Positions 2,747 to 46,390 of a stretch of DNA of 64,000 nucleotides are shown here, one piece after another. The notes below the pieces were generated by a model. It saw nothing but the letters and a program-made list of their open reading frames with translations. It was not told where the DNA came from and did not search any database. Made by a program: the position numbers and the translations under genes. The DNA is taken from positions 1,054,001 to 1,118,000 of the forward strand of contig JAACJP010000003.1 of assembly GCA_013368375.1 (NCBI GenBank). Direction: 5' to 3'. This DNA is from Tricholomella constricta (lineage: Eukaryota > Basidiomycota > Agaricomycetes > Agaricales > Lyophyllaceae). The stretch's first letter is position 1. Every line of letters starts with the position of its first letter.

Positions 2747-6309
<3,563 letters not shown>

Positions 6310-9027: not shown

Positions 9028-12000
9028 TTACACGTCATCTAAAAGTACTTCTGAATAGACGACATTACTTGTTTTGAAGCCGGCACCTTCAGGCAGCAGG
9101 ATATGGACGTTGTGAGAAGAAGTCGCCCGTGATAAAGCGACGTACAGCTGTCCATGGCAGAAGACAGGCGATATCAAATGTATACCGACATATTTCAATG
9201 ACTGGCCTTGAGATTTGTTGATGGTCATTGCAAACGATAAGCGAACGGGAAATTGACGCCGCCTGATGGTGAAAGGGTATCGGCGAGAAGAGGGCTTCAG
9301 TGTAATCCTTGGAATAAAAGCTTTTTGTCCATGGTGGTCGCCACCCATGATGATAACTTCCAAAATGCAGGGATATGCACGAAGAAGGATCATCCTCGTG
9401 CCATTGCATAATCCTTTCCCTGGATCCAAGTTGCGCAACAGCATCAGAGGACATCCTATTTTCATCTTCAGTTCCGAGAGCGGCAGCGAAGGGCTATTCA
9501 GGGTACGAAAGAAGTCTTCGGGAACGTCGTCACGTATGCCTTCGCCTTCGTCCTCCAAGCTGTCTGCACTGTAACACATGATTTCCTGGCCTTGCATGTT
9601 GTTAAGAATTTTTTCATTTGTCTGCTGAACGTCGACGTTTCGTGGCGCAAGAATGGCATGCTCTAGGAAATAATCGACAGGAGGAGGGGTAAGGGGAACG
9701 TCGCCGATGTCTCCATAGATTTGGTCGATGAGTTCATCTTCGCTGAAAGTCACCATGGATGGAGGAATGTCAATCTTTCCATCCTCATCAACATTTCGTC
9801 CATGCCCCACGTCCAGCAACCATTGAGAAAAACAGACGTCTTCTGGTGAATGCTGAAGTCGCATGTTAGTATGCAATTTCAAGACGTGCATCTCGTTCCA
9901 CAGGTTTGATTTTCGCAAACAGGTGTTCACGACGTCGGCGCGCGATCCGTTTGGAACTACAGGCAGTATTTGCTGAAAATCTCCACCGAAAATCATCGTC
10001 AGGCCCCCGAATGGCTTTGGACAGTCACGAAGGTCGCGAAAGGTTCGATCGAGAGCTTCAAAACAATGCCGATGGGTCATTAAACATTCATCGTAGATAA
10101 TTGCCTTCGCCATTCTCAGCAAGTCGGCTCGAAGACTCTCTTTTGGGATGCTGCAAACTGAGGTGCTGTCAAGTGCGTCGATCGGGATCTTGAACATGGA
10201 ATGCGCTGTCTGACCATTTGGAAGCAAGAGACCTGCGAGACCTGTAGATGCCACACAAAGGATTATTATTCCCTCCGCTCGAACAGCATGACAGAGAGCT
10301 TGGTAGAGGTACGTCTTGCCACAGCCTCCAAATCCTTCGACAAAGAAGATCTTGCCTTCGTCATAGATTATGGACTGCCAGATTGCTTGGAAGGCATACT
10401 TTTGGTCTGTGTTCAATGAGAACATGAACTGACGGGCCACAATGCCTTCGCATGCAGTATCGAAGTTCATCTGTTGTGATATCAAGCGATTATGAAGTGT
10501 ATCGGACCAATTCAACTGTGATTGTGGCATCGATGGGAAGTCGGAGAGAGCGTGTCCTGAATCGTGAAGGATGTTGTCGATAAGGTGTAAGCCAAAGTCA
10601 TAAACTTCACTTTGCATCACCGCTGTACGCCCCACTTGATAGAGTTTGTGGCGTAGGTCATCACAGATGTTATCGCGAAAACGGGTCCACAGTGCATTTG
10701 GTTCTGCAGGGGTACAGAAAAGCAATAACGTGGTGAACAGGTGTCGAAGTTGCGAGCCTGATTGGATTTCAGCTGCATCTCGTAGGCATATTTCCCATTC
10801 TCCATCGTCTTCTAAGAGACCGAGTTTTAGACAGGCGTCGTGAAATGTTTTGCACAGTTCACCATCGACCGTTCGCAAGTCTTCGAATGACTTGGGACCT
10901 TTCGTGACCATCAACAGTGTTCGAAGATGAAACCGTTCTCCGGCAGTTGGTCCGACATACACCATACGTCCGATGGCAAAAGATTCGCGTTGTCGGCGAT
11001 GCCATTCCTTGGACTGTGGATTGCTTGCACTGGCTTTAATGACAAAGTGGTTGGGAAAATCTTGATAAGTGAGAGTTCGTGCTAAGTCGCCTGTAGGACC
11101 TGGAAGCTGATTGGTTTTGAAGAAGGCCATTAGAGGTGTATCAGTGTTTTCTCCACATTCAACAATGTGCGCTGCATTGGCGGAAGGATCGAATATGATC
11201 CGTTGCTCATGAGGAAGATGGATTTGCAGAGGCACCACGTTCGGTTTTTGACCTGTGTAGGATTCAGTTCCATGTGAAACATTATTTTTGTTGATAGGCT
11301 TACCATGTAGATTGAATTGAAGAATCCGCCAAGCAGCTTCGATGGACGAAAAATAACGACCATCAATGTATTGTTTGACTTCATCGTCGCGGTCATGCAA
11401 TGTAAGGGTCCCGCAGTCTCCGCCTTTGTCGATGTATTTGTTGATGTATTTCATAGATGCAAAGCAGACGGCGCATTCAACGTTTGTATGGCACTGAAGC
11501 CATAGCATGCAGTATGGATTATGAGGTACAATCCACCGATTATCGAGCATGAAACCTCGGACTTGATAGCTGCGACCATCATCACGACGTGCGTAAGATG
11601 GATAACCATCGCTATCCATGGTGGTATATTGTTGAAAGGGTTTTGGATAGCCATAAATGCATTTGCCGTCGCGCATGCAAGGTGCGTTAGGATTACAAAT
11701 GCCGCAAGGTCCATGTACCATGAATTTCTTGACGACGTCAAATAAGCGAGATTGTGTCACTGGATCGGGCCATTGAGCGCTGATGATACTGTCGACAATA
11801 TCAGGAGAAAGGAGTTTATATTCTGCTTTTAAGAATATCAAGAGGTGCATGTGTGGAAGCCCCCTTTTCTGGAACTCGATGGCGTACACATGAGCGACAC
11901 AGGGTCCAAAAATGCCGTCTTCGAGAATCGCCTTCATAAGCGCTTTCTTCTTCAGTTGAAAGACACGCGCTACCAAGTCAGGTCGATCAGCAACTGTTTG

Positions 12001-13665
12001 TCCAGGAAGCAATTCCCGTTGAATCTCAGGCCACTTTGGGTTTGCGGTCATCGTCAAAAAAATGTCGATCTTTTTGAAGTGCCGTGCAATGGCCATGCCA
12101 TCCAGGTATCGCTGATGCATGTCTCGTGGACCCCCAAGATAAGACGATGGGAGGATGACACGCTGTCCTAATTGATTAAGGTCAACACGGTCATCGTTCA
12201 TTGATAATGCATCTTCTATTCCATTCAACAATGTAACGCGGAGTTTGTGTTGCTGGGTGCGAATGAAATGAAGTCGTTCTTGATCGATGCAGGCGAACAT
12301 GTCTACCAAGTACGTCTGAAACAATCGACATCCCCGTAGAATTGTGGAAAATTCGTTGCGGCGTGGATGGATCCGGTATGCTGTGTGCTGTAGCAGGGTT
12401 ATCCGCCTCGGATTATTGGGAACTCGCAGTTCATAATACCAGCCAGGTTCTCCGAAAGGAAAGAGAAGGACGTAGTGCAAGGGAGTATATGCTGCATGTC
12501 CTTCGCTGATACGGTAGAGCTGTAAATGATCCCGATTGTTCTGTGGATTGTGATAGTGCTGAGGTCGAAGATGAATAATAATATCACGATGGTCGCCTTC
12601 GAAAATGTTCTCTCCAGGTAGGATGACACCCACTTCATCGGCAGTTGGTAAATTATAGCGTCGAGGATCATGACCTGGAACAACACAGAGTTTGACGGTG
12701 TAATCTGGAGCATCATACATTCGCAAAACTTCATATGCATGTTGATATATAGGCGTATAGGCGTTGTAGTTCCACATGATGCGTTGAAGAACCTGCATTG
12801 TGTTGAGGGAGAGGTTTTCATTTCGAGAGATACGATATTGATATGCCTCGTGAGGATCGTAGATGTACAGTTGTGAATAGCGAGGAGGCGTAGTCTCTTC
12901 GGGAAGTAGGGAGCCTGACAGATGGCGAAGTTCTCCATGAATTCGGAAGACGGGAGGTCCATGACCGAGAACAGACCGATCAACCTTCACACCTAAAGAT
13001 GTAAATGCCAGCGCCGCATTGTATTGCACGATATTTGCTCGAAATTCTTTGCCTCCAGGAGTATCCGCCGTGAATAAATTATATAGAGGGGCTGGAGGGA
13101 CCCGGAGAAGAGGTAACTTTACTTTACCATGTGCACAACAGGTCCCAAATTCGGGATGACCGGCTCTCGACGATGAGACACGCTCATCAAGCCAATGAAA
13201 AGCATCACAAAAAGCACAAAGTATATTCATGATGCCTAAATCATGGGCAGGTGAAGTATCGAGAACAGGTTGTCGTGCAACGGAAAATAAAGAATTACGT
13301 GCTGCGAAGATATTGAGCATATATAGAACCACGAAGATGTAAGTACTCACTCGTTCGTGTCTCATTATGCAACACTGATGTTCGTTGTGTAGCAGTCTCA
13401 TTCTCTCTTCTCTGTGGATGATAAGGAACGGTAGGTGACGACGCTGTCTCTTGAAGGTAAGTGTCCATGTCTTCATGACGACGGCGTTGACCTGTAAAAG
13501 ATGTAGGAGCAACACCCTTGAAAAAATAACATAAAATTGAGCATCGTCTCAGTTTCGGACGCGGAAAAAACATACAGAGACTATCTCCGGTAGTCTCCAT
13601 GTCGTACGTGGCCGATAGGAGGGGCAGCGTATCCGTACAGATTTTCGAGTGGGCTCTTGAGCCAT
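9028..13665 (-). CDS. Helitron Rep/Pif1-type helicase (RepHel transposase)
   Basis: Three exons (13665-13576, 13516-13351, 13301-9028) give 1,509 residues with no internal stop. The N-terminal half is the Helitron_like_N region, including FHWLDERVSSS and FGTCCAHGKVKLPLL. The Rep nuclease shows the HUH-type motif GLPHMHLLIFL near 11,850 and the catalytic tyrosine motif YINKYIDKGGD near 11,450, with two Tyr four residues apart. The C-terminal Pif1-like superfamily 1 helicase has Walker A GFGGCGKT near 10,320, Walker B IIYDE, GGDFQQILPV, and the motif V/VI stretch INKSQGQSLKYVGIHL with YVALSRATS near the end. Rep nicks and joins single strands during rolling-circle-like transposition, and the helicase unwinds the donor. 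The first two exons are predicted from splice signals only. All catalytic motifs are present, so the element may be active. Confidence 0.93.
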
Positions 13666-19160: not shown

Positions 19161-20321
19161 AAAAAAATCTGGCGTCGTTCAGACGTCAGTGCCGTTTTCT
19201 GCCTCCTAGATGTCGAGGGCTTCGGTGTCCTCTACCATTCTGCCTGGGAGCCACTCGTCGTGGTCGCGGTCATATCCAACCCACCGGACGAGGTATTGCT
19301 TTCTGCAGCTGCGGCGACGTGCATCGACTATTTTGTCGATCATGTTTTCTTCGGTTCTGTCCTTGGTGACAACAGCCCTGGGCCTAGTGAATTCACGGTC
19401 CGGGAAGAGGGCAGCATCGTTGGGGATGAAGGGTTTGAGGAGACTGGCGTGGAAGCCCGGGAAGGTTTTTGAATCATTCGGGAGGCGTAAGGTGTACTCA
19501 GAGCGCTTGGGGAAGGCTTTCACGATTGTATAGGGCCCATTGTGTCATGGCATAAATTTGGCGACATGTTTCTTGCCTTTCCATTTATAGTTTCGGCACC
19601 GGTTCTCCGTCGATAGCATGACCAGACCTCCTTCATTGTAGATGACTTCCGGAGCGCGGTGCTCATTAGCGTGGTAAGCTTGACGTATCTTTGCAGCAAG
19701 TAAGTTGTCTTGCGCCTCCTTAATGTCCAACTCCAGACACATGAGGATTTCGTTGGTGCTGAGTTCTGCTGGTGTTGCATCGGGAGCAGGTGGTGCAATG
19801 GGGGGAATGATGCGTGGGGAGCGGCCAGTTTTCAGCTGGAAACCAGAGAATCTGGTGGACGCGTTCACAGTGTTCATGATTGCAAAACGGACCCGTGGCA
19901 GTTTTGAGAGCCAACTGTACTGATTATTGTCAACATGATAGCGAATGGCCTGGTTGAGAGTCTTGTTCATGCGTTCACTCGAACTGTCTGTCTGTGGGTG
20001 ATAGGCAGTGGACATCTTTAGCTTGACTCTGGTGAGTTTGTGTAATGCCTCCCAGAGTTCCGCAGTGAATAAAGCATCACGGTCGCTGACAATGTGCAGC
20101 ATGAGCCCGTTCTCGCAGTACCATTTATCGAATAGGACAACTGCGATTTCGGCTGCAGTTTTGATGAGTGGACTCCAGCGAGGCATACGTCGGTGCCAAG
20201 AAGGTCGGTCATCGTAAGGATGGTGTCTTTGCCATCCTCTTCAGGTAGTGGCCCAACGAAGCCTAATACTACGGTGTCGAAACAGGCGTCAGGGACTAAG
20301 AGAGGGTGTAGGGAACAAGGT
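19161..20321 (-). pseudogene. Gypsy-A integrase and chromodomain, decayed
   Basis: Minus-strand pieces in at least three frames. From right to left they give an integrase start (FVGPLPEEDGKDTILTMTD), the catalytic core with the HIVSDRDALFT and STAYHPQTDSSSERMNKTLN blocks (DDE second Asp and Glu), then a C-terminal region ending in a chromodomain (QYLVRWVGYDRDHDEWLP). The chromodomain would steer insertion to marked chromatin, as in fungal Gypsy elements. Frameshifts near 20,200 and 19,540 and several stops make it dead. It is cut at 20321 by the TIR element; the rest of pol continues at 28209. The breakpoint lies just before the integrase SLHPL segment. Confidence 0.85.
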
Positions 20322-20322
20322 C

Positions 20323-20580
20323 TTTACACTCCCCCACCTATTCTGATCGGAATCCTATTGGACTCCTAGGAATTCCTAGGACCATCCTAGGATTCCGATC
20401 AGACCAGTTGCATAGGACTTTACCAAGATCCACTCATTTGGACCAGTCCGAGTCCTATCTAGCCCGATCAGAATCTGTCGGACTGTCAGATCGGACTCGG
20501 ACTCCGATAGGATTCTGACACAGGATAATCCGACGGACTCCTTGGACATCCTAGGACAGTCTGATTACTTGATATCTTTA
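20323..20580 (+). repeat. left terminal inverted repeat and subterminal repeats
   Basis: The first ~83 bp align with the reverse complement of the right end. Inside are several GATCGGACTC / GATCAGAATC-type 10-mers in both orientations, related to those of the right end, like subterminal transposase or recombinase binding sites. The stretch 20581-21032 holds no supported gene. Confidence 0.75.
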
Positions 20581-21032
20581 GTGAAAAAAATATGGAGCAG
20601 CCAGGATTGAACACTCACTTTGCCAACCCAAAGGAAAGGCAAAGCACACTTAGTGTGGAGAATTTACCGTGCTCTGGCGTATGGGAAAAAGATCTGAGCG
20701 AGACCTTGATCGGATCGGCCGCACGCCCAGAGCCGGAGGCCGGCCCTGTAGGGTCCTGTTTGCGATCAACGCTGATGCCAAAGCCGGCGGCTGCCCTGCT
20801 TTGATGCTGATGGCACGCTCTGATGGATCGCTCGCTGCAGCTCGCACGGATTTTTCTTTGCTTTCGACGCGACGACAAGACCACGACGACGACCGTGGTG
20901 TGCCCCCAGCCTGCCAGCCCAGACCACTGAAGGATTATAATGTGGTCTATCAATTAAGGGATGTGTTGTATTATACCTCTAATATCAAAATCTACTGTCA
21001 CTGATCCAGCTTCTCGCGTCGCAATTTCATCC

Positions 21033-23446
21033 TCAGTCCTCTGCGCTCGTGCTCGTGCTCATGTTCCTCTCAGTTGGTGAGCCATTCTTGCTCCTTCTTC
21101 GCTTTTTCCTAAGCTTGGTTCGAATGGCATCAAGGAGGGTTGTCAGATACTGATAGTCCTCAGGGTATGCGGCCTCAAATGCCTCGTCCGACCTGCCCAG
21201 CCTGTTGTCCAACTCGGTCAGTGTGATCATGGTTAACTGTTGCTACTCACCTAATCCATTCTTCTCCGATTAGCTCCCGCTGATGGCGCTTCGATGCCGT
21301 GAACAGCTTCATCTCTCCAGTGTACCAAGATGTCGGCCAATCCTTCAGTGGGATGTGGAGGCCACGAAAAGGATCACCATCTGTCCACTGCAACGCAGCG
21401 CGCTTCCATGCGCCCTCTCCTCCACCAATATCTGGGATGATGGCCTCTCCAATCGGCGGCATTGTTTTCTTCTTACGGCAAGTTGGCGCCTTCCCCTTGT
21501 TCGCAGAAAAGCTGACATCATTAGATTCCTGGGAGCCGATGCTTGTAACGCTGGGTGATTGAGTAGGATAGGGTGCGGTTTCTTTGATTCTTGCAAGACG
21601 GACTGAGGGCCTGGATCGGTGGGGCAGGGATGCATAGATAGTGTCTGGCGGGAACGTGTGGCCAGCATCGTAAGGATGCGTTGAGTGCCTCTGGTGAGTG
21701 CCGGCCCAACCTGCAGTGAACGATATCCTGCTCATGAAATCCTCCAGAGTACACTTGATCTCCTGCATGTTGGCCTTCACCTCACCCGTTGTTATCCCCA
21801 AAGACCGGTCCATCACAGCCTTAAATTCTCGCATCTCACTCGCCGTGGTCGCTTCTTGGAGCATTTGGTTCCCCGCGAAGCTAACATTAGCCTCACTCTG
21901 AGTAGGATTTAACGCATCTGAGTGGTCGTTCTCGTACCTTTGAAGCGAGTCGACAAGATAATTTATAAGGGTATCAACCTTGGATATAAATATATTAGTT
22001 TTCTTTTCATGCTCTCTACAATGTATTTCCATTACTCACGTTCTCTCCAATAGCCCAGCCACCCCACCAACGGACTCTGTTCAGTGTCCATCGGAGATGT
22101 CGCGGTGCAAACATGAAGCGGTACTGGGCGCCGCCTCGACGAAATGAGTGAGTCGTATAGGTTTTCTCGAGCCCAGCTGCCTTGGTAAACTGAGCCAGTG
22201 TTTTTGCGAAGGACGTATACGACATATCTCGCTTCGGGTGGATTGTTCCGTTGGGGGCAATGTAAGGGAATAGAAAATCATCTGGTTCCAGCGGTCGCCT
22301 AATCTGGGATTCGTATAGCTTTAACCATTGGGGAAGGTGTGTATACATGTCCATTTCTTGATGATCTTTCTGTTCGTAAATCTTGTATCTGCAACCTGAC
22401 ATTAATTGTACTCAGGTGATGATCGGTACACATAGAAGAAGTAATCCACATACTGTTTCGAGGGCCATCGAAGCCGGCCTGCTTCTGCCATCCCTTTCGA
22501 TTCTCAAGATGCACCTCGAAATGCGGAGTATAATATGGTGCGGGCCCCTGACAGTTCCAGGTAATATCCCTTACATTGAGTGTAAGGAGTTCAAAACAAC
22601 TGATTGATGTGTTAGTGCTAACCCTCCTCTATGGAAAACAACGAAATGGGTCATTTACCGTGTCCACAACGTAAAAGCTGTACTTGCGAAGCCACGAAGA
22701 AATCCATGCTCGACAATTTCTTTTGAGCATCCAAGTATGTCATTATTTGCCGTGGCTTCTAACTGATCGTGAGGGCAAGCGTCTTCAGAGAACCGCATAA
22801 GCTTTTGCAAGTCTTCAATGGGCATGGCTTCTGCATGGTGTCTTGTTGCGTCCGCGCCCTTCTTTTTTCCCTTTGTCTTTACAGCTTTCACAAGGTCTGT
22901 TACTAAGGGAGCACGCGCAGGGCAGCCCGTAATCTTGCCAGTAGTTTTATCGATCCGATAAGGCCCAGCATATGTTGTTCCGCTCCTGTTTTCCGGAGGT
23001 AAGCAAGTGTCCTAGTCATGAAATGCCTGAAGCACTCACATTGTATCCCAGTAGCGACAAAAAGCCGCATGGATCCCCTGCGCATAGCTATCAGACAGGT
23101 CCTCTGTAAAGCACTTCTGGGTTATGAAAGCCGCAACCACCGTAGCTGAATACTTGTTCGGCGCTGACAGATCCAGGGCTTTTTCGAGCTCGTCGGTGGG
23201 AATACCATCCTCACACACCTCGATTCCATCTGCTTTCCTTCCTTCCACCAATTCTGACAAGAACTCCTTGCCCTGATTCACGTAGCGTTCGTAGTTGTCT
23301 TCTGTTTTCTGGACACAAATATACTCCTTTACTTTTGCACTGCCAGTCTTTGTTAGGGTGTCGAGGCTTTTCTTGGCTCCGTCAGACTTCTTTTTGACAG
23401 ATCGTCTTGGCCGTTTGTTGCTTGTGTCCTGCAATGAGGATGCCAT
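21033..23446 (-). CDS. tyrosine recombinase (site-specific DNA breaking-rejoining enzyme)
   Basis: Six exons (23446-23040, 22985-22659, 22599-22454, 22395-22040, 21978-21251, 21201-21033) join in phase to 710 residues with no internal stop. Residues ~1-20 are basic (NKRPRRSVKKKS). About 40-200 is a helical SAM-like core-binding region (YATVVAAFITQKC-like helices). The catalytic domain has Arg I in LWTRCFELLTL (R245), a hairpin Lys in ENRKGWQ (K280), HxxR in THSFRRGG (H376, R379), Trp in RWWGGWA (404/407, in place of the usual His) and the nucleophile in DTLINYLVDSL (Y419). The Trp-to-Tyr spacing resembles Cre. After Y419 come ~290 extra residues of unknown role, including a possible coiled coil and a basic tail RKKRRRSK. 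It would cut and join DNA through a phosphotyrosine link, probably mobilising this element. Confidence 0.82.
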
Positions 23447-23650
23447 AGAAGACGTGGATGAGCGGCAATGATTCAGGAGAGCAAGACCTAATTTCACACA
23501 GATCTCATGTTTCACTGTCTCTTGATCACTTCCTTGCCCAAATAACTAATCTGATTGCTCACATAGGAAATTCACTAGCATACATCGGATACGTGGTTGA
23601 GAAAACCATAATTATACAACAGTACAGTTGAATAAATAGATGCAGTGAAT

Positions 23651-25658
23651 TCACTCATTGGAAAGGTCAATGTAACCGAGAAACCTGAACCCTTGACTCT
23701 CTGTTGCTCGACAAGCAGTAACTTCTGTCAGGCTATGTGTAGCCTTATAGTCATGAGTGTGTGCCCAGTTGACGAGGGACCGAAAATTGGCGTGATCAGG
23801 ATATGGCGGAGCGGGCACTGTAACAGGGGGAAACAACTAAACAAGAGTGGACTTATCAGCTATTCAACTTTTAGGAATGAAACGACACTTACAGGCTCAG
23901 GTTCTGTCGCCAATTGCTCGTCTTCTTCGATCCTGATTTTACGGCCAGGAGGCTCTCTATGAAATAGCTCAACCATTCTTGGAAGGGCTTGCCGAAGGAT
24001 TGACACCAGAAGCCAAATATTTGCCATCGCCTGGTCCTGCGGCCTAGGAATCTCGGCAGGGAGGCGACGGAACATGCTTGTAACGAGGGAGTGGGTTTCA
24101 ACTTTGATCATGTATCCTGGTACATTTCCATGTTCACGAGAGGAGCCCGGACCAAGCTTTGCACGCCGAATGGTGATAACATTTGAGTGGTTGAAGTCTC
24201 CCATCTCGATCCAATTTGAGGCATGTTCGAGAAGTAATGCAGTTGAGTTAATGGGCTAGAAGAAAGTCGATCATTAATTGTCATCCATCGAGGTAAGAAG
24301 AAAATAAAAAAATACCTTGAGGAGAGAACGAGCACAAATACCTCCCCACACCTTGTTCCGAAATCGAGAAAGAAGCTGGTTGCGAGTTCCCCAGGAAAAA
24401 TACTTCTCACACCATGAAGCGATCATCCCGAAGTCAGGCTGAAGGCGGCCCCACTGTGAGGTGTCAGGCAGTTTGAACTCGTCGGACCATGAGGTGACCG
24501 GCTGAACATAGTTGCGAAGCACAGGGATGGCGAGAAAGCCTCTCTTGATGTTCTTTGCTACTGAAGGGAATTTGGAGTTTAGTATTCTATTCGGGTTCGA
24601 GACCAGGTAATCTATCAATTGTGCCCTCCAGCCGACAAGATAGACCTTCAGTTCATCATCCGGCAGATGTCGAGCAGCTTAATATAGATCCTCGGCAGGT
24701 GAAGTGTTTTGGTTGAGCTTCAAGGCAGTGTCGATACCGCAGCCGGACAAACCCTCCTAGTAATTTTATTGAGTATAATGATAATGATATTATATGAGAA
24801 TCTCACCGTATCATAGTCGCCACCGCTGAGAATCGCAATAAGCACCATTTTGGAGGTGCTAAGTGAAAGTGAAGACTGAATTGTGTCCAACGTGTAGATC
24901 GAAACCAGGTCGCCATCCTTTGAGATGTTCGGGCTGATGGACATCAAAAGGAAAGAAAAAAAATCAGAGGAGAAAACAGACATACATTCGAAAAACATGG
25001 GTTGCACCAAAAAGAAAGGCATCGACATCTTCCGTCATAACAGCATCAATTTTTCCTGATTTTGATAGCTCCGCGAGCTCAGCTTCGGCCTCTCCTGGAG
25101 CCTAAATAACGAAGTGATTTGGTAAGGGAATTCATGTATTTGAAGTTTACATACCACATAGAAGTGGAAACCGACGCTCGTGAGGAGTTCTTGGAAACTG
25201 TTGGTGAGTGCATGAGGTGTCGTCTTGACTTCGCGGCCCCTTTTGTACAATGGCCCCTTATTGCCCTCGAAAACGTATACAGGTGTGACAGGGAGGGCAA
25301 GCATGCGGCAGATTTGCCAGAAGAGAATTTGCAAGGGCAGATTCTCCCCAGCCTGCATATTGAGACCACCTTTCTGGTGGTAAGCCGCGTATTGAGCCCG
25401 ATTGAGTAGAATGCTTGAGATAATTGTTAATGGTGCAGCACAGAAAGAAAGTATCGAAACACACCTAGCATCTACTCCAATAAATAGGGTACAAGATCCT
25501 CGCCTCTGGGATTCAAAACCTTCCACCGTCGCAACTTGAGTCAAAGTCCGAACTTGGACAGCAGGCTTAAGTACCTCGAAATATATATTCAGTTGTCAGT
25601 TTGGACACAAACTGGGGAGATACCAAAGGCTCACTTTCCATAATCCAGCGACACCCAT
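23651..25658 (-). pseudogene. XPG/GEN1-like Rad2-family structure-specific nuclease, one in-frame stop
   Basis: Eight exons join in phase (25658-25635, 25574-25465, 25413-25155, 25101-24986, 24933-24807, 24756-24316, 24255-23893, 23836-23651): 541 codons with a single TAA at 24681-24679 (codon 238). The N-terminus MGVAGLWK is the standard Rad2 start. Metal ligands seen: D43 (IGVDAS), E135/E137 (APGEAEAEL), D156/D158 (MTEDVDAFLFG) and D209/D211 (SGGDYD), followed by the helix-two-turn-helix GLSGCG. The usual Asp of the VFDG motif is Glu here (VYVFEGNKGP, E94). Such enzymes cut flaps or Holliday junctions; the acidic layout is closest to GEN1/Yen1. The stop falls just after the nuclease core, and the frame stays intact for 300 codons beyond it, so the break is recent, bypassed, or a sequencing error. 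Confidence 0.82.
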
Positions 25659-26814
25659 GATAGTAGCTCTGAAGAAAAGTCTGTAAGCTGAACTCCTGAA
25701 AACGATGATCTGAGACGTACATCATTTTACATCGTGAAACAAACACAGCTCAAAATGCTCGGGCAAAAACAAGAATGTCCAGAGGTAAGAAAAGCCAGAG
25801 CACCCCAGACAGAGGCGTTCATGAGAGGAATCAATGTCACTGAAACCAGAGGTCAGGATAGTGGGACGCAGGTGCAGAGAAATATTGTCCGACATCCATT
25901 ACCAGCAAAACCGCAACACCTGTAGTGCACGTGATGATAGCAACGTGTCAATACGACCAAAGCATACAAATACAGTTCATTCCAGCCCGACAATGCAACC
26001 TGGCGATTAAGTCAGTGCTGACGCTTAATCACACAAATTTACGGTAAATTTGTGTAAATCCAAATTTACAGACCAGCTGCTGTAAGGCTACATGTCACAC
26101 AGGCCAAAATTTACTAGCTTAGCTGGCAACGACGTCTCAAATTTACCACTTGTTCAAATCACAGGCTCTAGGTGTGAAGTAATTGAAATTTTACATGTTC
26201 AGGGTGTCCTCTGATTTGAAGCTAAGAAACTTTTTCGATCATATCTCATTGTACAGGGTTCAAAAATACAGGTGAAGGGTGTTTGCACGGTGCCTAATGT
26301 ACTGCCTGCATGGTGAATTAAATTTGTTTGCCAGTCAATTCAAGATATAGAGCTATTGATTGTAGAGTAGTGAAAAAGAGCAAAATATGCCGAGCCAAAT
26401 GGGCAAAAGTTAATGCAACTAGTGTCAAAAATGCCTGGTGAAATAAATGGTCATTACAGCCAAAATGAGTTATCGATGTTCAGAATAAACCTGGGACTCA
26501 CATTCCAGGTGCGTGCACCGGGGATCCACAATATGCATGTCTCGCTCGATAATCCATCAAACATTGCAAATGTCGCGACAGGTTGCAATACTGTGTGAAG
26601 GCCGGAGGGCTGAGCGCCTTGCAGTCTTTGTTTGGATGCACTCTGATGTCGGCTGTGCGCTCGGAGCTTGGCTGGCCTTCACCCGTTCGGCTGAAAATTA
26701 TCCGAATCATGCTCAATTTAATATCAGTCAGAGCTGTATGTAGGGGAAAATAAAGGACGACTTAAAACGAGCTCAGAGGCGCAAGGCTTCGAGACACGAA
26801 AAAAATGTAATGGC
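25659..26814. other. non-coding part of the TIR element upstream of the nuclease gene
   Basis: No supported gene. It would contain the nuclease promoter. Between 26,000 and 26,170 the short word AAATTTAC and relatives recur (at least five times) in both orientations. The rest shows nothing I can name. Confidence 0.5.
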
Positions 26815-27183
26815 AGTCCTGTGATTGTATCCGAGTGTAGCTACACTCGGCTAATGGACATGAGCATACATTGAGCAAGAACAAGTTTACAATGAAGCGG
26901 GTACCTTTTGGGCCAATGCTCTCGATCGACTGGGTTCCACTCACATTGCGTCGAGACGCGCCAAAATAATTAAACGACAGTCTGTGATCGTATCCGTAGC
27001 CGAGTGTAGCTACACTCGGCTGACGGACGTAAACATACATTGAGCAAGGACAGATTCACAATGAACAGATTACCTCTTGGACCAACACTCTCCATTGGCA
27101 TGCCATGCTACTGAGTTCCGCTCACGTTGCGTCGAGACGCGCCAAAATAATTTAACAACAGTCTGTGATCGTATCCGTAGCGT
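26815..27183. repeat. tandem duplication with a perfect 24-nt palindrome in each unit
   Basis: Two units of about 165 and 180 bp begin at the GT(C)CTGTGAT(T/C)GTATCC landmark at 26816, 26981 and (start of a third) 27161. They share ACATTGAGCAAG(A/G)ACA and the segment GCGTCGAGACGCGCC. Each unit carries the CCGAGTGTAGCTACACTCGG palindrome (26831-26850 and 26998-27021). The same palindrome, with one mismatch, lies in the Gypsy-A LTR at 19050. Confidence 0.75.
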
Positions 27184-27539
27184 CAGGACTTATGCAAAAT
27201 CGCGTGATGTCATAAGAGTTGTGTGCACCATCCAAGAGTCGTGACTCTACATGATCCCCGAGCTGAATTGAATTCCGTCAGGGTGACTAGGACTAGAGAA
27301 AAAGGACGTTACATAAAAAATGGACTGAGCGGCAAAGAGTCCATGGTCAGGATACAGCCGAGCTCCGAGCGCAGCCGACGTCAAAGTGGGTCCGAACAAG
27401 ACCGTTCGCAAGCCCCTTCATCCAAGTTCAACTCTAAGATCGCCCGATTCTTTGTCGATTGTCCAGGGCCCGTTGGCCGGATTTTACAGCAATTTACCGT
27501 GCAGCGGTGAATCGAGACAAATATCTGTACTTAACCATT

Positions 27540-28040
27540 AGGCCATCAATTCAATTTAATATCATGAGGATGAAGAAGTTGATGAAGAAGTGTAGGTAGG
27601 GTTGTAGTTATTGTATGTCAGTTTGATATATAGTTCAATCAGAATTTTGTATGTAGTCTGATCAGAATCTTAGGATGTCCTACCAGAGTCTTATGGAGTC
27701 CGATCAGACTTCAATAAGGTTGTAGTCATTGTATGTTAGTTTGATAAATAAATTCAACCAGAATTATGTATGTAGTCTGATCAGAATCTTAGGATGTCCT
27801 ACTAGAGTCTTACGGAGTCCGATCGGACTTCACAAGGTTACTTTATAGACCAAACTACATAAATTACAATCCATAGTCCTATCGGAGTCTTACAGAGTCC
27901 GATCGGACTTCATAAGCTTAATTTGTAGATAAAACTACATGAGTTAATAATTTGCAGTAGTCTGATCAGAATCCTAGGACGGTCCTAGGATTCTGATCAG
28001 AATCTTTGGAGTCCGATCGGAATAGGTGGGGGAGTGTAAA
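27540..28040 (-). repeat. right terminal inverted repeat and subterminal direct repeats
   Basis: Three to four copies of a ~100-bp unit contain AGTCTGATCAGAATCTTAGG, then GAGTCTTA(T/C)GGAGTCCGATC. The last 83 bp are the inverted copy of the left end. Multiple short binding-site-like repeats near an end are typical of DNA transposons. Confidence 0.75.
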
Positions 28041-28208
28041 GTACTGTAGAGGACCCGTTGCGGGCATGCATCATGGCCTCTACAAGGCATGGTCCGTGCA
28101 ACATACAAAGCTATAAATACATCATGATGTACTATGATAGATCTATCTTACCATATCCTGTCTCTCCCACCATACTGTGAGACTTGCTGAGGTTAACGCC
28201 TCCACCAT
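28041..28208. other. 168-bp segment between the right TIR and the resumption of Gypsy-A
   Basis: It begins near TGTAGAGG (28046) and contains CCTCTACA 32 bp later, an 8-bp inverted pair around GCGGGCATGCATCATG. It is not Gypsy coding sequence, and the AGGT duplicated with the left flank follows it. It may be part of an older insertion into which the TIR element landed. Confidence 0.45.
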
Positions 28209-29837
28209 AGGTTTTGTGGTGCAGCTCTTGTTCCTCTGGCATGGCGAGCATGACAGGATGTAAGCCTGCTCCAGATCTCGGTGCATGTTTGGCCAATAGT
28301 ATGATTCACAGAGTGCCTTGTAGCTCTTGTCGAACCCAAAATGGCCTAGCGTGTCATGGGTGAGGTTGTATAGTAGCTCCTGAACTCAAGGGAGCTTGGG
28401 GATGAGGAGGCGGTGCCCCACATATATGAGGTTGTTTTCTTCGCGGGTGCCAGCAATGATGCCTGCCTCAATGTTCTTGCGTAGCTGTTTGGCAAAATCA
28501 TCGACCTTGTAGCCAGCGATGATTTCGTCCAGTAGTTCCTTGTGTACCAAAATATCCAAGGTGGCGAGGCCGACAGTCACAGCTTGTGGGTTCCGCGTCC
28601 ACGCCAAAGCACAGGCGGCAAATAAAGGGCTCGGTGGTTTGTCTGGCATGCAGGATAGTGCATCAGCTGCCGTGTTGTCCTTGCCTTGTACATAGGTAAT
28701 GGAGAAGTCGAAGTCGGCAAGATAAGTGGACCATCTCATCTATCGCCGGGACATCTCCTTCTGCGACTGAAAGTACTCAAGTATGCGATGGTCTGTAAAG
28801 ACTTCAAAGCTGATTCTGAGGAGGCTTGTTCGCCATTTCTTGAGCACTTTCACAATGGCTAAGAGTTCCTTCTCATGTACAGGGTAGTTCTTCTCTGCAG
28901 CATTTAGCTGGTACGAATCAAATGCAACCAGGCGCGCCATTTTCCAAGTCTCTCCAAAACTTAGGACGGCGCCCGTGCGATGCTCGCTGGCATCAGTTGT
29001 CACGTAAACCTTCCATGTGGGGTCGTCGTAGTTGATCACGGTGAGGCATCCAGCTCCAGTGACAATGTGCTTAATTGCGTTAAATGCCGTCTGGTGCTCG
29101 GAGGTCCACGGAGGGAATTTTGTGTCGCATTCTTTAGAGGTGAGTGGTGTGAGAATGCTTGTGTGCTCTGCGAGAGTGGGAAGGAACACTGCAATATAGT
29201 GCATGAGCCCAAGAAACCCTCTGACATTGGTCGCAGTTTCTGACTGCAGCCAGCGGAGAATGCGGTCGATTTTCTGTGGGTCAGCTGAGATTCCCTGTGC
29301 GGAGATCTTGTGTCCCAAAAAAGAGATCTCTGTGGCGAAGAGGATCGTCTTGGTGGCGTTGCAGTAAAGTTTGGCCTTGCGCAGCGCCTCTAGTACCTTG
29401 ACCACATTTTCCTCGTGTTCTGCGAGGGACGAGGACCAGATAATAATGTCATCGAGGTATACATGGCAAATTTTGCCAATGTGCTCTCGTAGGGCATCTG
29501 TCATGCAGCGTTGGTGTGTTGACAGAGCATTGCATCCTCCCATGGGCATGACAGTCCATTCATAGAGGCCCCATGGTGTACAAACAGCTGTCAGGTGAAC
29601 ACTGTTGGGGTGCATGCGCGTCTGGAAGAAAGAATTTGTCATATCTATCTTCCCGAATATCTTTCTACCTCCACATGCCAATAAGATGTCGTCAACCGGC
29701 AGGGGGTAGTTGTCATGGTGCCACAGCCAAAAATGGTTTTCACTGAATCCAGCACGAAAACCCCGCACTGCGACAATAGTGCCTCTGGAAAAGAAATGCA
29801 CAATAGAGAATGGAAACCACCACACAGATAAGATCAA
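28209..29837 (-). pseudogene. Gypsy-A reverse transcriptase, RNase H and integrase zinc-finger region
   Basis: Minus-strand pol. It starts inside the RT (HHDNYPLPVDDIL, then GGRKIFGKIDMTNSFFQTR), with the catalytic YLDDIII box of palm motif C near 29,440 and the LGHKISAQGISADP connection. RNase H follows (YVTTDASEHRTGAVLSF, EKNYPVHEKELLAIVKVLKKW, FTDHRILEYF). After a stop at 28740-28742 the frame continues with GKDNTAADALS and, after another stop at 28386-28388, reaches the integrase HHCC finger (HDTLGHFGFDKSY ... CSPCQRNKSC). The RT N-terminus, protease and gag are missing. The element is dead and its integrase core lies on the far side of the 7.9-kb insertion. Confidence 0.9.
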
Positions 29838-41889: not shown

Positions 41890-43172
41890 TTGTTACCTAT
41901 GCCTAGTACAACAACTATATCACGTATATCTATACTGTCCCAGAATGTAAATCGAAACTATGAGTTGGTTTCAAACATTTTGGAAGAACGCAAGTCGTCA
42001 TTCGACCTCTTATTGATTCAAGAACCTCCATGGAACTTCATACGGCGCACCGTCTCAGCTACCAACCCGGAAGGGGAGGCAGTGGTCGGTCCACCAATTC
42101 ATCCAGACTGGATGGTCATCTTCCGGCGCTAGCAGCAATGCGACCCGCGTTTCGCACAGACCTTGCAGATCACAGGGACATCCTGGTGCTCACGTTGTGG
42201 GGTGAAGACAACACTCCTCTACACTATATCAACGTCTATTCAGACCAAAACTCCACAGCCATTAACTGGCTGTGCGACAACGTAGAACGCCTGCCACAGC
42301 TTCAGTGCATGGCAGGCGACTTCACCTGCCATTCATCTGTCTGGGACCCCCGACACGAAGGCAACAATCATGTCGCAACGTCACTGATTGACGCTGCGTC
42401 TGACCTCGGGGTGGATGTAAGTGTGCAACCTGTTAGGACGCCCACGCACTTCCCCCACGCCAGGGGCCTTGTGCCCTCGGTAATCGACCTTATGTTCCTA
42501 CCACAAGACCGCCTGGTAGGACTTACACACGAGGTGCGCACAGACTGGATTGCTTCGGACCATGCACCACTCTGCGTAACCCTCCCTATCCGTGCTACAG
42601 AAGTAGCTTCAGAAAGGCTGGCAATGCCCAAAGGAAGCGAAGAGGAATCATCGTTTCTACAAGCACTGCTCACCTACATTAAGTCAATGGACATCTCCAA
42701 TATTGACACACGCGACGCTCTAGAAGACCTGATTGCAGGCCTTGCAAGAGCTTGCAACGACGCATGGAACTCAAATGCCAAAACAGTCAAAGTGAACACC
42801 CGGTCAAAAGCCTGGTGGAATGCTGACTGCGCCACTGCGATGAGGCAGTACAGACAGTCCCGGTCCCCTGCAGACTATGGGGCTCTTAGGCGCGCCACAA
42901 AGGCGGCTAAACGGCAATTTTTCGATGAACGCATCGAAACCATTGCTACCAAGAACAAGCGACCTTGGGACCTGATGAACTGGACCAAGCAACGCAACCT
43001 CCCAACATACGAGGCAATTCCCTACAACGAAGCGCCCTGTAATACGATGGATGACCTTTGGCAGGCCCTTCACGCCACATATAATGCTGCGTCAGATCGA
43101 CCAGTCAAAGTGGAAGTACTGGAGGAAGTGGAGCAAGAACCCCCGCGGGTCCTCGCCCAGGATGCGCGCTGA
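41890..43172 (+). pseudogene. LINE ORF2, apurinic-like endonuclease part
   Basis: The first piece (SILSQNVNRNYELVSNILEE, then FDLLLIQEPPW, the metal-binding Glu of the EEP fold) ends in a TAG at 42130. The remaining ~340 codons follow in another frame: YINVYSDQN, MAGDFTCHSSVWD (catalytic GDFN-like Asp), VIDLMFLPQ and IASDHAPLCVTL (catalytic His with SDH). It would nick target DNA to prime reverse transcription. Past ~42,700 is the linker (KAWWNADCATAMRQYRQSR) usual in these elements. The frame stops at 43,172, where it meets the RT remnant. Confidence 0.85.
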
Positions 43173-43989: not shown

Positions 43990-46390
43990 CATGGTCAGAG
44001 CGGAAAAATGTGACTTTACAGCCAGTGGAATTCTCGACGTGTGTGATAAACACTCTGAGTTCATTCCTAGTGTCGTTCTTCAACTTCAGGAATATCTTCC
44101 AGCCTTTTCGACTGCAATCGTCGGTGAAGCCGTGGATGGAGCGATTGAAGAGTCCTTGAAGATCGGCGTGAAGACGTTCGAGGATTTTTGTGGCGCGTTC
44201 CGTGGCTTGTCGAGGGAAGGGAGGTTGAGGATGCCTCCCCAATGCGCATCCTTCGCAAGGGTGTAGCTCGTCAGAGCGTCGAAGATTCAAGCCAGTGACC
44301 ATGTCATGCTTCGATAGATAGCAAAGGTAATTTTCGCTTATGTGACCTAATCGGCAGTGCCAGACGTCGAGGGATATTTTAGAGGAGGGTATGGCGGGCG
44401 AAGGCGAGTGTGGATGGAGGGGAGGAAGTGGTAGCGACGACGCAATTCATGTCATAAAGGCCTTCACGGAGGAGCTTGCCTTCCATGATGACCTGGCGAT
44501 CGTCGTTTGAGATGCGAACCTTCCCATGTTTCTTCCAGATGCCCAGGCCCTTTCGATCCCTTCTACTCTCCGAGATTAAGTTGTCCCATGCGGCAGGGCA
44601 AAAACGAACGCGTTGGAGGGTAACGACACGGTCTGGACATCCCTTGACGCTGACGACGAGGTCTACTTCGCCGCGTCCTTCAACGATGAGTTGAGGTCCA
44701 TTCGAATTGATGCCTCCGACTGTGGTGTTCTCGGGAGTGAAGGTCTTGAAGGCTGATCGATGTTTACTGTGGGCCGTAGCTCCACTATCTAGTATCCATC
44801 CAGTGGGCGAGGTGAATGGAGTAGTCGAAGCCATGTAAACGGAGGTCTCGGATAGTGTCGAGGCGCTGGAGTTGTCGTCAGAGTCAGTGTCGTGACGTGC
44901 CTGGTGTGCCTTCGTTCGCGAGGATCCCTTCCGTCTGCTCTTCTCTCGCTCCTTCTCTTTCTCCTTCTCCTTTCCTTTTCCTTTCCCCTTCGACTTCTTA
45001 CTTCTCTGGCGAGGCCCCTGCCCTTCAGCTCCACCCCCTTTCGACCAACAGTCTTTCGAAAGATGACCGGATATCCTGCAGTTCGTGCAGAATGGTTCGC
45101 CGGGGACGGGCGTTCGACTCTTGGGTTTCTTGCTGCCCGATGCATGCGAGGCATTATACGCCATGGCCGCGGTCTCCTGGTTCGTCCGAACTCCATATTC
45201 GTCTTTGATTCTGCGTTCGACTTCGGAGGATGTATACTTGGCGGGTAAGCCAGCGAAGACGTAGTTCCAGGAAGAGGGCATAGAGATGCGAAGGAAACAT
45301 GCGTACAAGTCGTCGTCAATGTCCCTCTGCATCATGATGAGGTCGCGGCGGTAGCCTTTCATCCGTGCGATGTGCGCGGGTAGGTCATCTCCGTCGACGT
45401 ATTTCGTCGTTACAAGGGACGTGATGGTGAGTGTCCAGTCAGTGAGCGTCCATCCCGCAAAAAGGCGCTGCGCTTCAAGCCAGATCACTGCAGCCTCGAT
45501 GGTGACCGAGTTGGTTCACCACCTCTTCCGTCATATTCGTGGTGAGGATCGCGCGCAGTTGAGCGTTAGCTCGTTTCCAGCGCTGCGCGGCAATTCGCTC
45601 CGTCTGGTCGTCCGGTTTCGGAACAAGTCCTTGACAGTAGTCGAATAAGTCCACGGTGTCGAGAGTAGATTCGATCATCGTGGTCCACGTAATGTAGTTA
45701 GTGGCGGAGAGTTTGTGTGGGAGGCGAAGAAGATGTTGATACTTCGAGGGCTCGATGTCCTGCTCCAGAGTCCAGTGAGTTGCAGAGTCGGGGTTCCCGT
45801 ATGGCGCCGGCGAGTGCGGGCGCGATTGTACCGGGGTCTTCGTTCCGTCTTCTTCCTCCAGAGAAGGAAACAGTGCTGGACGTAGGCGCCCTGTTACGGG
45901 CGAGCCAGAGGTGTGGGCGGACGGGTTAGTTGAGCTGTACGACATGGTGTTTGTCGGATAGATGGGATCGCGATGGGTGCTGATGGCGCGGCTCTGTGAA
46001 CTGTTCGAGATCCAGGCAGCGGCTCAGTGCAACAGGTTCTTCCTGAAGGAGTCTAGTGTTCGTGTTCACGACAGGTAGGCTTCTCGAGATGCGCTCAGGC
46101 TCCGGGGCTCATAACCTGATAGAAAGTACCGGGCTAGATGAAATACACTTAGTCCTCAGTCGTGTAGAGACTCGTTATATTGGATGTACCTAGATGAAAT
46201 ACACTTAGTCTAATAAGGAATGTATCAGTAAGTGTCCTAGGTACAGTAAGGATTGAGTTAGCTTACCCTCAGTCGTGTAGTAGAGACTGAGGGTGAGGAT
46301 ACGTGGTAGGCGCGTGTATGTACAGTGCACGTGAAGTGATTAGATTAGATTATCGAGAGGAGAAACGAGAGACGAGAATGTATAGTACAT
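43990..46390 (-). mobile_element. Copia-type LTR element, 3'-truncated and decayed
   Basis: Reading leftward there is a gag-pol start (ATG at 45945), a zinc knuckle, a protease, a GAG-pre-integrase segment and the start of the integrase, cut at ~43,990 by the LINE end. On the minus strand at about 46,112-46,100 lies TATCAGGTTATGAGC, a half-tRNA-Met-type primer-binding site as used by fungal Copia elements. The interval 46,131-46,395 would then hold the 5' LTR; inside it a 20-bp word (TAGATGAAATACACTTAGTC) is repeated 59 bp apart. LTR borders cannot be fixed. Confidence 0.75.
44063..45945 (-). pseudogene. Copia gag-protease-integrase polyprotein, broken
   Basis: From MSYSSTNPSAHTSG (45945) the gag region has HLLRLPHKLSATNYITWTTM and reaches a frame break near 45,490; the next frame carries AGLPAKYTSSEVERRIKDEYG, a CCHC knuckle (CTNCRISGHLSKDCW), a long Lys/Glu-Arg run, and the aspartic protease active site WILDSGATAHSKH. 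A stop follows at 44379. Beyond, GAG-pre-integrase HPCEGCALGRH and integrase start LHADLQG, FTDDCSRKGWKIF and FFRSDHGGEFIAV are visible to 43,990. The reverse transcriptase is missing. Confidence 0.88.

Follow-up and report, generated by a model that had tools for sequence, protein, structure and literature searches.

Starships are elements with a DUF3435 captain that carry large cargo. In the accessible text of a 2011 survey of Cryptons (PMC3212892), the mechanism of eukaryotic tyrosine-recombinase transposons is described as largely inferred by analogy with bacterial ones, Cryptons are credited with having given rise to several host genes, and one core copy is present before insertion and two after. 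The additional features reported there are GCR1_C, a C48 peptidase and a Mariner fusion, and the main text, as accessible, contains no word beginning with "nuclease". Here we describe a locus in Tricholomella constricta, an Agaricales mushroom of the Lyophyllaceae, in which a tyrosine recombinase gene lies beside a gene for a nuclease that is GEN1-like in sequence and predicted fold.

Mobile elements at the locus

The window analysed, a 64,000-nucleotide stretch of a 2.05 Mb contig in a 44 Mb genome, probably contains three nested mobile elements: a gypsy-type retrotransposon, a short KDZ-type (Kyakuja-Dileera-Zisupton) transposon within it, and, innermost, a Crypton-class tyrosine-recombinase transposon with a GEN1-like nuclease. 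The host LTR retrotransposon, of Ty3/gypsy type by our reading, lies on the minus strand in two parts, a chromodomain side at 19206..20316 (Chromo domain at 19206-19523) and a reverse transcriptase/RNase H side at 28047..29837 (RVT_1 and RT_RNaseH at 28740-29837). Its frame at 19545-20186 reads as integrase-like in translation and has no Pfam match. A genome search with the joined flanks for a gypsy site lacking the KDZ insertion returned the window's own flanks alone. The window is transposon-rich elsewhere as well: a minus-strand open frame of 1,495 residues at 9028-13515 encodes a stop-free Helitron protein (Helitron_like_N, PIF1 helicase), and frames at 42030-43172 and 44379-45488 carry an endonuclease-reverse transcriptase domain and copia-type gag/pol domains.

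Comparison with the ends of other KDZ copies delimits the middle element, to which no strand is assigned, as a left part at 20317..20647, with the TIR TTTACACTCCCCCACC..., and a right part at 27535..28046, ending in GTACTG. The matching inverted ends and subterminal repeats reported in an earlier note on this DNA are present, with arms at 20322-20355 and 28008-28041 (34 nt, 94% complementary). The limits it gave, 20323..28040, do fall at inverted ends, but the outer element extends 6 bp further on each side (AAGGTC, 20317-20322; GTACTG, 28041-28046). The end motif has 35 genome-wide matches at ≤2 mismatches, whereas its reversed control has none; 30 of the 35 form 15 facing pairs, one has a blastn partner in L028, and four are unpaired. 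The 16 resulting pairs, window included, span 2.0-13.9 kb and keep the outer hexamers GAGGTC and GTACTG, the left one being AAGGTC in the window. Exact target duplications flank eight of the 16 (six of 8 bp, two of 9 bp) and are absent from the other eight, including the window, whose flanks agree at 6 of 8 bases. In the one KDZ copy scanned for domains (L017), two frames contain CxC5 and CxC6, cysteine clusters associated with KDZ transposases. The outer element resembles an ordinary KDZ family in its CxC5/CxC6 domains, TIRs and target duplications of ~8 bp, the accessible text of PMC12730594 giving 8 bp for Zisupton, and it shows no kinship to the recombinase. The long TIRs around the gene pair are the ends of a KDZ-type transposon unrelated to the recombinase, not the recombinase element's own ends as the earlier note had it. 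Eight short KDZ derivatives (L009-L016, 2.0-2.8 kb) contain internally repetitive DNA, and frames in two of them, L012 and L013, read as proline-, histidine- and threonine-rich repeats.

The innermost element, 6,887 bp on the minus strand at 20648..27534, carries the recombinase and GEN1-like nuclease genes; its ends resemble those of seven relatives (L029-L035), and its insertion point is unbroken in other KDZ copies. Alignments of the window to other KDZ copies end ~5-30 bp from either inner-element end. Most other aligned copies read ...GTTAACCATTAGGCC... without a break at this point (10 copies in one alignment and 8 in another, with small differences), whereas the window reads ...GCACA, then the inner element, then ...CTTAACCATTAGGCC. 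To the right of the insertion the match to unbroken copies lasts just ~17 bp before jumping to sequence from the right end of the KDZ element (94.6% to L019 across 483 bp), and the window KDZ copy is therefore also internally deleted. Some KDZ copies hold further inserted elements, by reading of their frames, and no recombinase match was found in any KDZ copy other than the window's. There is very little doubt about the nesting and the Crypton-type insertion of the inner element, and both genes are that element's own set and not the outer TIR element's.

Ends, empty sites and copies of the inner element

The inner element begins with the direct repeat TTAAGT (27529..27534, minus strand; family form ATAAGT) and ends with CTAAGT (20648..20653, minus strand), both placed by end alignment and empty sites. 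Fragments of the window recombinase and nuclease match the same seven other loci, where the nuclease lies ~3 kb upstream on the same strand. These loci share the 5' end ATAAGTACAGTTATTT... (ATAAGTAAGGATATTT in L035) and the 3' end ...CTAATAAGT. The six measured copies are 6,188-6,365 bp long, except L029 at 7,143 bp; the L032 copy is interrupted before the 3' end is reached, and that contig has a matching 3' end farther along. The two ends do not form inverted repeats, agreeing at only 2-5 of 14 bases in six copies; L030 and L035 show weak subterminal inverted similarity, above most shuffles. A 5' subterminal region (27455..27534, minus strand), delimited by motif counts, contains repeated GTAAA/TTTAC motifs. 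Three such motifs occur in the first 80 bp of 10 of the 11 copies counted (L032 left out) and two in the window copy, against a mean of 0.1-0.6 per 80 bp, with a maximum of up to 5, inside the element. We would guess that they are candidate recombinase-binding sites. The seven longer frames of L034 outside both genes had no Pfam match at E 0.01, and no reverse transcriptase was found among them.

Aligning ends across copies and finding empty sites, a check the earlier note had proposed, defined the junction as ATAAGT with one core copy before insertion. When the flanks of L029 are joined at a single ATAAGT, the resulting sequence aligns through the junction with another locus for ~206 bp (reported as 100%, with one mismatch visible). 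The joined flanks of L034 match 13 loci at 94-99% (nine at ≥97%), covering 33-43 bp to one side of the junction and as much as 100 bp to the other; matches are weaker for L031 (82%) and L030 (76%), the same search gave none for L033 and L035, and L032 was uninformative. The 6 bp direct repeat therefore arises from one target copy at insertion. The first base of the core varies among ATAAGT, CTAAGT and TTAAGT; such variation would be expected if a resolvase tolerated mismatched cores, though later mutation also accounts for it.

Identity among copies L031, L032 and L034 is 98.4-99.6%, suggesting that they moved recently. Four short, MITE-like derivatives (L041-L044; 409, 1013, 1017 and 993 bp) have the same ends and match neither gene, implying mobilisation in trans. 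A scan for the end motifs at ≤3 mismatches found 21 5' ends and 17 3' ends (0 and 2 in the control) and turned up a fifth short derivative.

The recombinase and its nuclease partner

The recombinase gene (21033..23446, minus strand) has six exons by exon mapping and no internal stop. Its product is identical to the public T. constricta protein P0009 (D9615_002449) and has exactly the 710 residues first counted. The catalytic residues named in the earlier note are likewise borne out: in an alignment of 29 sequences K280, Y419 and W403/W404 are invariant and R245, H376 and R379 nearly so. The predicted fold is Cre-like at a weak to moderate level (TM 0.47-0.49 on target) and is taken as supporting only, the model being of moderate confidence (pLDDT 72.6, pTM 0.45) with values below 50 in the stretch 398-429 that includes Y419. 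Matches to Pfam are weak. The nearest family, DUF3435, appears at E up to 1 in 21 of the 29 sequences (best E 6e-4) and exceeds the curated cut-off in none of the six tabulated proteins nor in the window fragment. GCR1_C was found in none of the 29 at E up to 1, and a divergent, unrecognised form is possible. A Bac_thur_toxin match to the C-terminus (E 0.026, 0.21) was dismissed as chance.

The GEN1/XPG-like nuclease gene (23860..25658, minus strand) was delimited from frames, Pfam matches and exons compared across copies. An automatic splice model ran both genes together, with an intron over the window stop, and was set aside for this exon comparison. A Rad2-family nuclease does lie upstream on the same strand, as first reported, and one window frame matches XPG_N at a score above the Pfam cut-off; the nuclease frame, however, is broken by an in-frame TAA (24681-24679), and the 204 bp originally given between the genes becomes ~413 bp from the nuclease stop (23860) to the recombinase ATG (23446), a figure that depends on the gene model. 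The window copy also reads VFEG where seven aligned relatives have FDG. Because of the stop and this acidic-site change (FDG to FEG), the window copy is probably inactive. Relatives have XPG_N and/or XPG_I and keep the acidic active-site residues. Fungal GEN1 structures are the clear best match to the predicted fold, with 384-396 residues aligned, whereas non-GEN1 chains align over ≤312 among the 50 matches listed; human GEN1 has a lower Z, and GEN1_C matches stay below the Pfam cut-off. The element nuclease is, on these predictions, GEN1-like. The host also has its own GEN1-type protein, P0215.

The two genes occur together at 8 of 8 clear loci in the T. constricta genome and at 9 of 10 when degenerate ones are included, the ninth pair, on C16, being degenerate and the tenth locus, on C6, a recombinase fragment without a nuclease. 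The earlier note had asked whether the genes might usually lie apart and outside any TIR pair; they do lie outside these TIRs, but not apart. Nine of the genome's 14 XPG_I matches fall within pairs. The distant degenerate pair L038 (C16:163000-172000; nuclease at 524-1799, recombinase at 4117-4257; identity up to 37% and 45%) has no recognised ATAAGT ends and is possibly another subfamily or a domestication candidate.

The pairing extends to other mushrooms, in the form of shared contigs and fused gene models. The best 120 of 276 recombinase relatives were used, and the nuclease relatives, at least 150, were split by their precomputed GEN1_C label into 54 without and 96 with it. Among species other than T. 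constricta for which a recombinase is listed, 13 of 25 nucleases without GEN1_C share a contig with such a recombinase, as against 0 of 17 of the host type with GEN1_C (Fisher p 0.0004; same species and equal-sized contigs as the criterion). In two of the contig-sharing pairs the genes are numbered consecutively (Laccaria bicolor 316329/316330; Arthromyces matolae 002806/002807, the latter contig being 6.1 kb long). Fused gene models place the nuclease first in Gymnopilus dilepis and Cyclocybe aegerita and the recombinase first in Steccherinum ochraceum (P0104); given this reversed order, the two genes may have come together on more than one occasion. The pairing thereby spans Agaricales and Steccherinum of Polyporales.

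Protein distances of the two partners are correlated over 19 pairs (r 0.79; reached in none of 5000 permutations), as they are among the copies of Flammula and those of Mycena crocata, and nearest neighbours agree in 12 of the 19, the window pair being an exception; P0093, the second recombinase P0025 and the L030, L031, L032, L034 and L035 pairs stood outside this test. Between diverged copies the nuclease has a dN/dS of 0.09-0.14 and the recombinase one of 0.07; in the near-identical pair the values are 0.22 and 0.12, respectively. Both genes are under purifying selection. The pair is old and maintained, and we regard it with high confidence as a conserved functional gene pair.

Proposed mechanism and relation to known systems

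We infer a pathway in which the recombinase would excise a circle through the ATAAGT core, the circle would integrate at an ATAAGT-like core by Cre-type strand exchange via a Holliday junction, and the GEN1-like nuclease would resolve that junction. Resolution could allow insertion or excision to be completed if the second strand exchange stalls, as it might where the cores of element and target differ. The two-enzyme proposal of the earlier note, with a nuclease acting on Holliday junctions, is strengthened by the nuclease's GEN1-like sequence and predicted fold.

Two alternatives concern what moves. That recombinase, nuclease and long inverted ends are mobile together as a single TIR-bounded element would explain why TIRs flank both genes in the window, but it is ruled out by the empty sites and retains next to no probability: the pair has its own ends, KDZ copies elsewhere are unbroken at the insertion point and have no recombinase match, and the other seven clear pair loci have no TIR match. 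Only marginally less improbable is a composite now moved as a unit by a KDZ transposase, like the Mariner-Crypton composite MarCry-1_FO in the accessible text of PMC3212892. The outer ends are intact and the genome has at least one KDZ copy with transposase-associated genes, but a single such composite was found in T. constricta and its flanks, alike at 6 of 8 bases, show no exact target duplication, leaving this reading without support.

The other two concern what the nuclease does. A host GEN1 copy captured once and carried as neutral passenger cargo would account for the relatedness to GEN1 and to P0215, but is very unlikely given a pairing that reaches from Agaricales to Steccherinum, the low dN/dS between diverged copies and the retained acidic residues. 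The nuclease could instead be a genuine element gene with another job, such as flap trimming, gap repair after insertion, or raising copy number during host replication or recombination; this is the less favoured but serious alternative, against which stands the longer alignment to fungal GEN1 than to non-GEN1 chains among the 50 listed. Action of the nuclease on the element's own junctions, judged from sequence and predicted fold, has about an even chance of being correct. Somewhat more tentatively, the elements may form a eukaryotic transposon lineage, widespread in mushrooms, with a two-enzyme pathway in which the recombinase makes the first strand exchange and the Holliday junction is cut by a GEN1-type resolvase that the element itself encodes, so that integration would no longer depend on strict core homology. 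If true, this would be a case of a transposon encoding a Holliday-junction resolvase dedicated to its tyrosine-recombinase system. A resolvase-like nuclease conserved with the recombinase offers a concrete, testable partner that could act once strands have been exchanged, and it ties mobile DNA to host GEN1. The family may also account for some of the unnamed mushroom proteins whose annotations read "PIN domain-like" or "Tyr recombinase / integrase".

Among the papers listed from the literature searched, outside which lie Repbase and most subscription journals, none described an element combining a recombinase with an XPG, Rad2, GEN1 or PIN nuclease. Starships share with the inner element DUF3435 as the nearest Pfam family, below the cut-off where bits are given; the inner element differs in being ~6.2 kb with two genes and no large cargo. 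Compared with the GEN1/Yen1 resolvases (PDB 5cnq, 6grd), the element nuclease has the XPG_N and XPG_I regions, the acidic catalytic residues and a predicted fold that aligns over model residues 2-464, but it is element-borne and linked to a recombinase, with GEN1_C below the cut-off. With Cryptons the inner element shares the R-K-H-R-W-Y residues of the tyrosine recombinase, the 6 bp terminal direct repeats with a single core copy in the empty site (accessible text of PMC3212892), and the lack of TIRs and, in the frames scanned, of reverse transcriptase. It differs from them in its GEN1-like nuclease and weakly Pfam-matching recombinase, and from CryptonF in that the GCR1_C DNA-binding domain was not detected in its recombinases. 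The transposon is thus of a known kind, the Crypton class, and what is new, by the literature searched, is a lineage of it with a resolvase-like nuclease.
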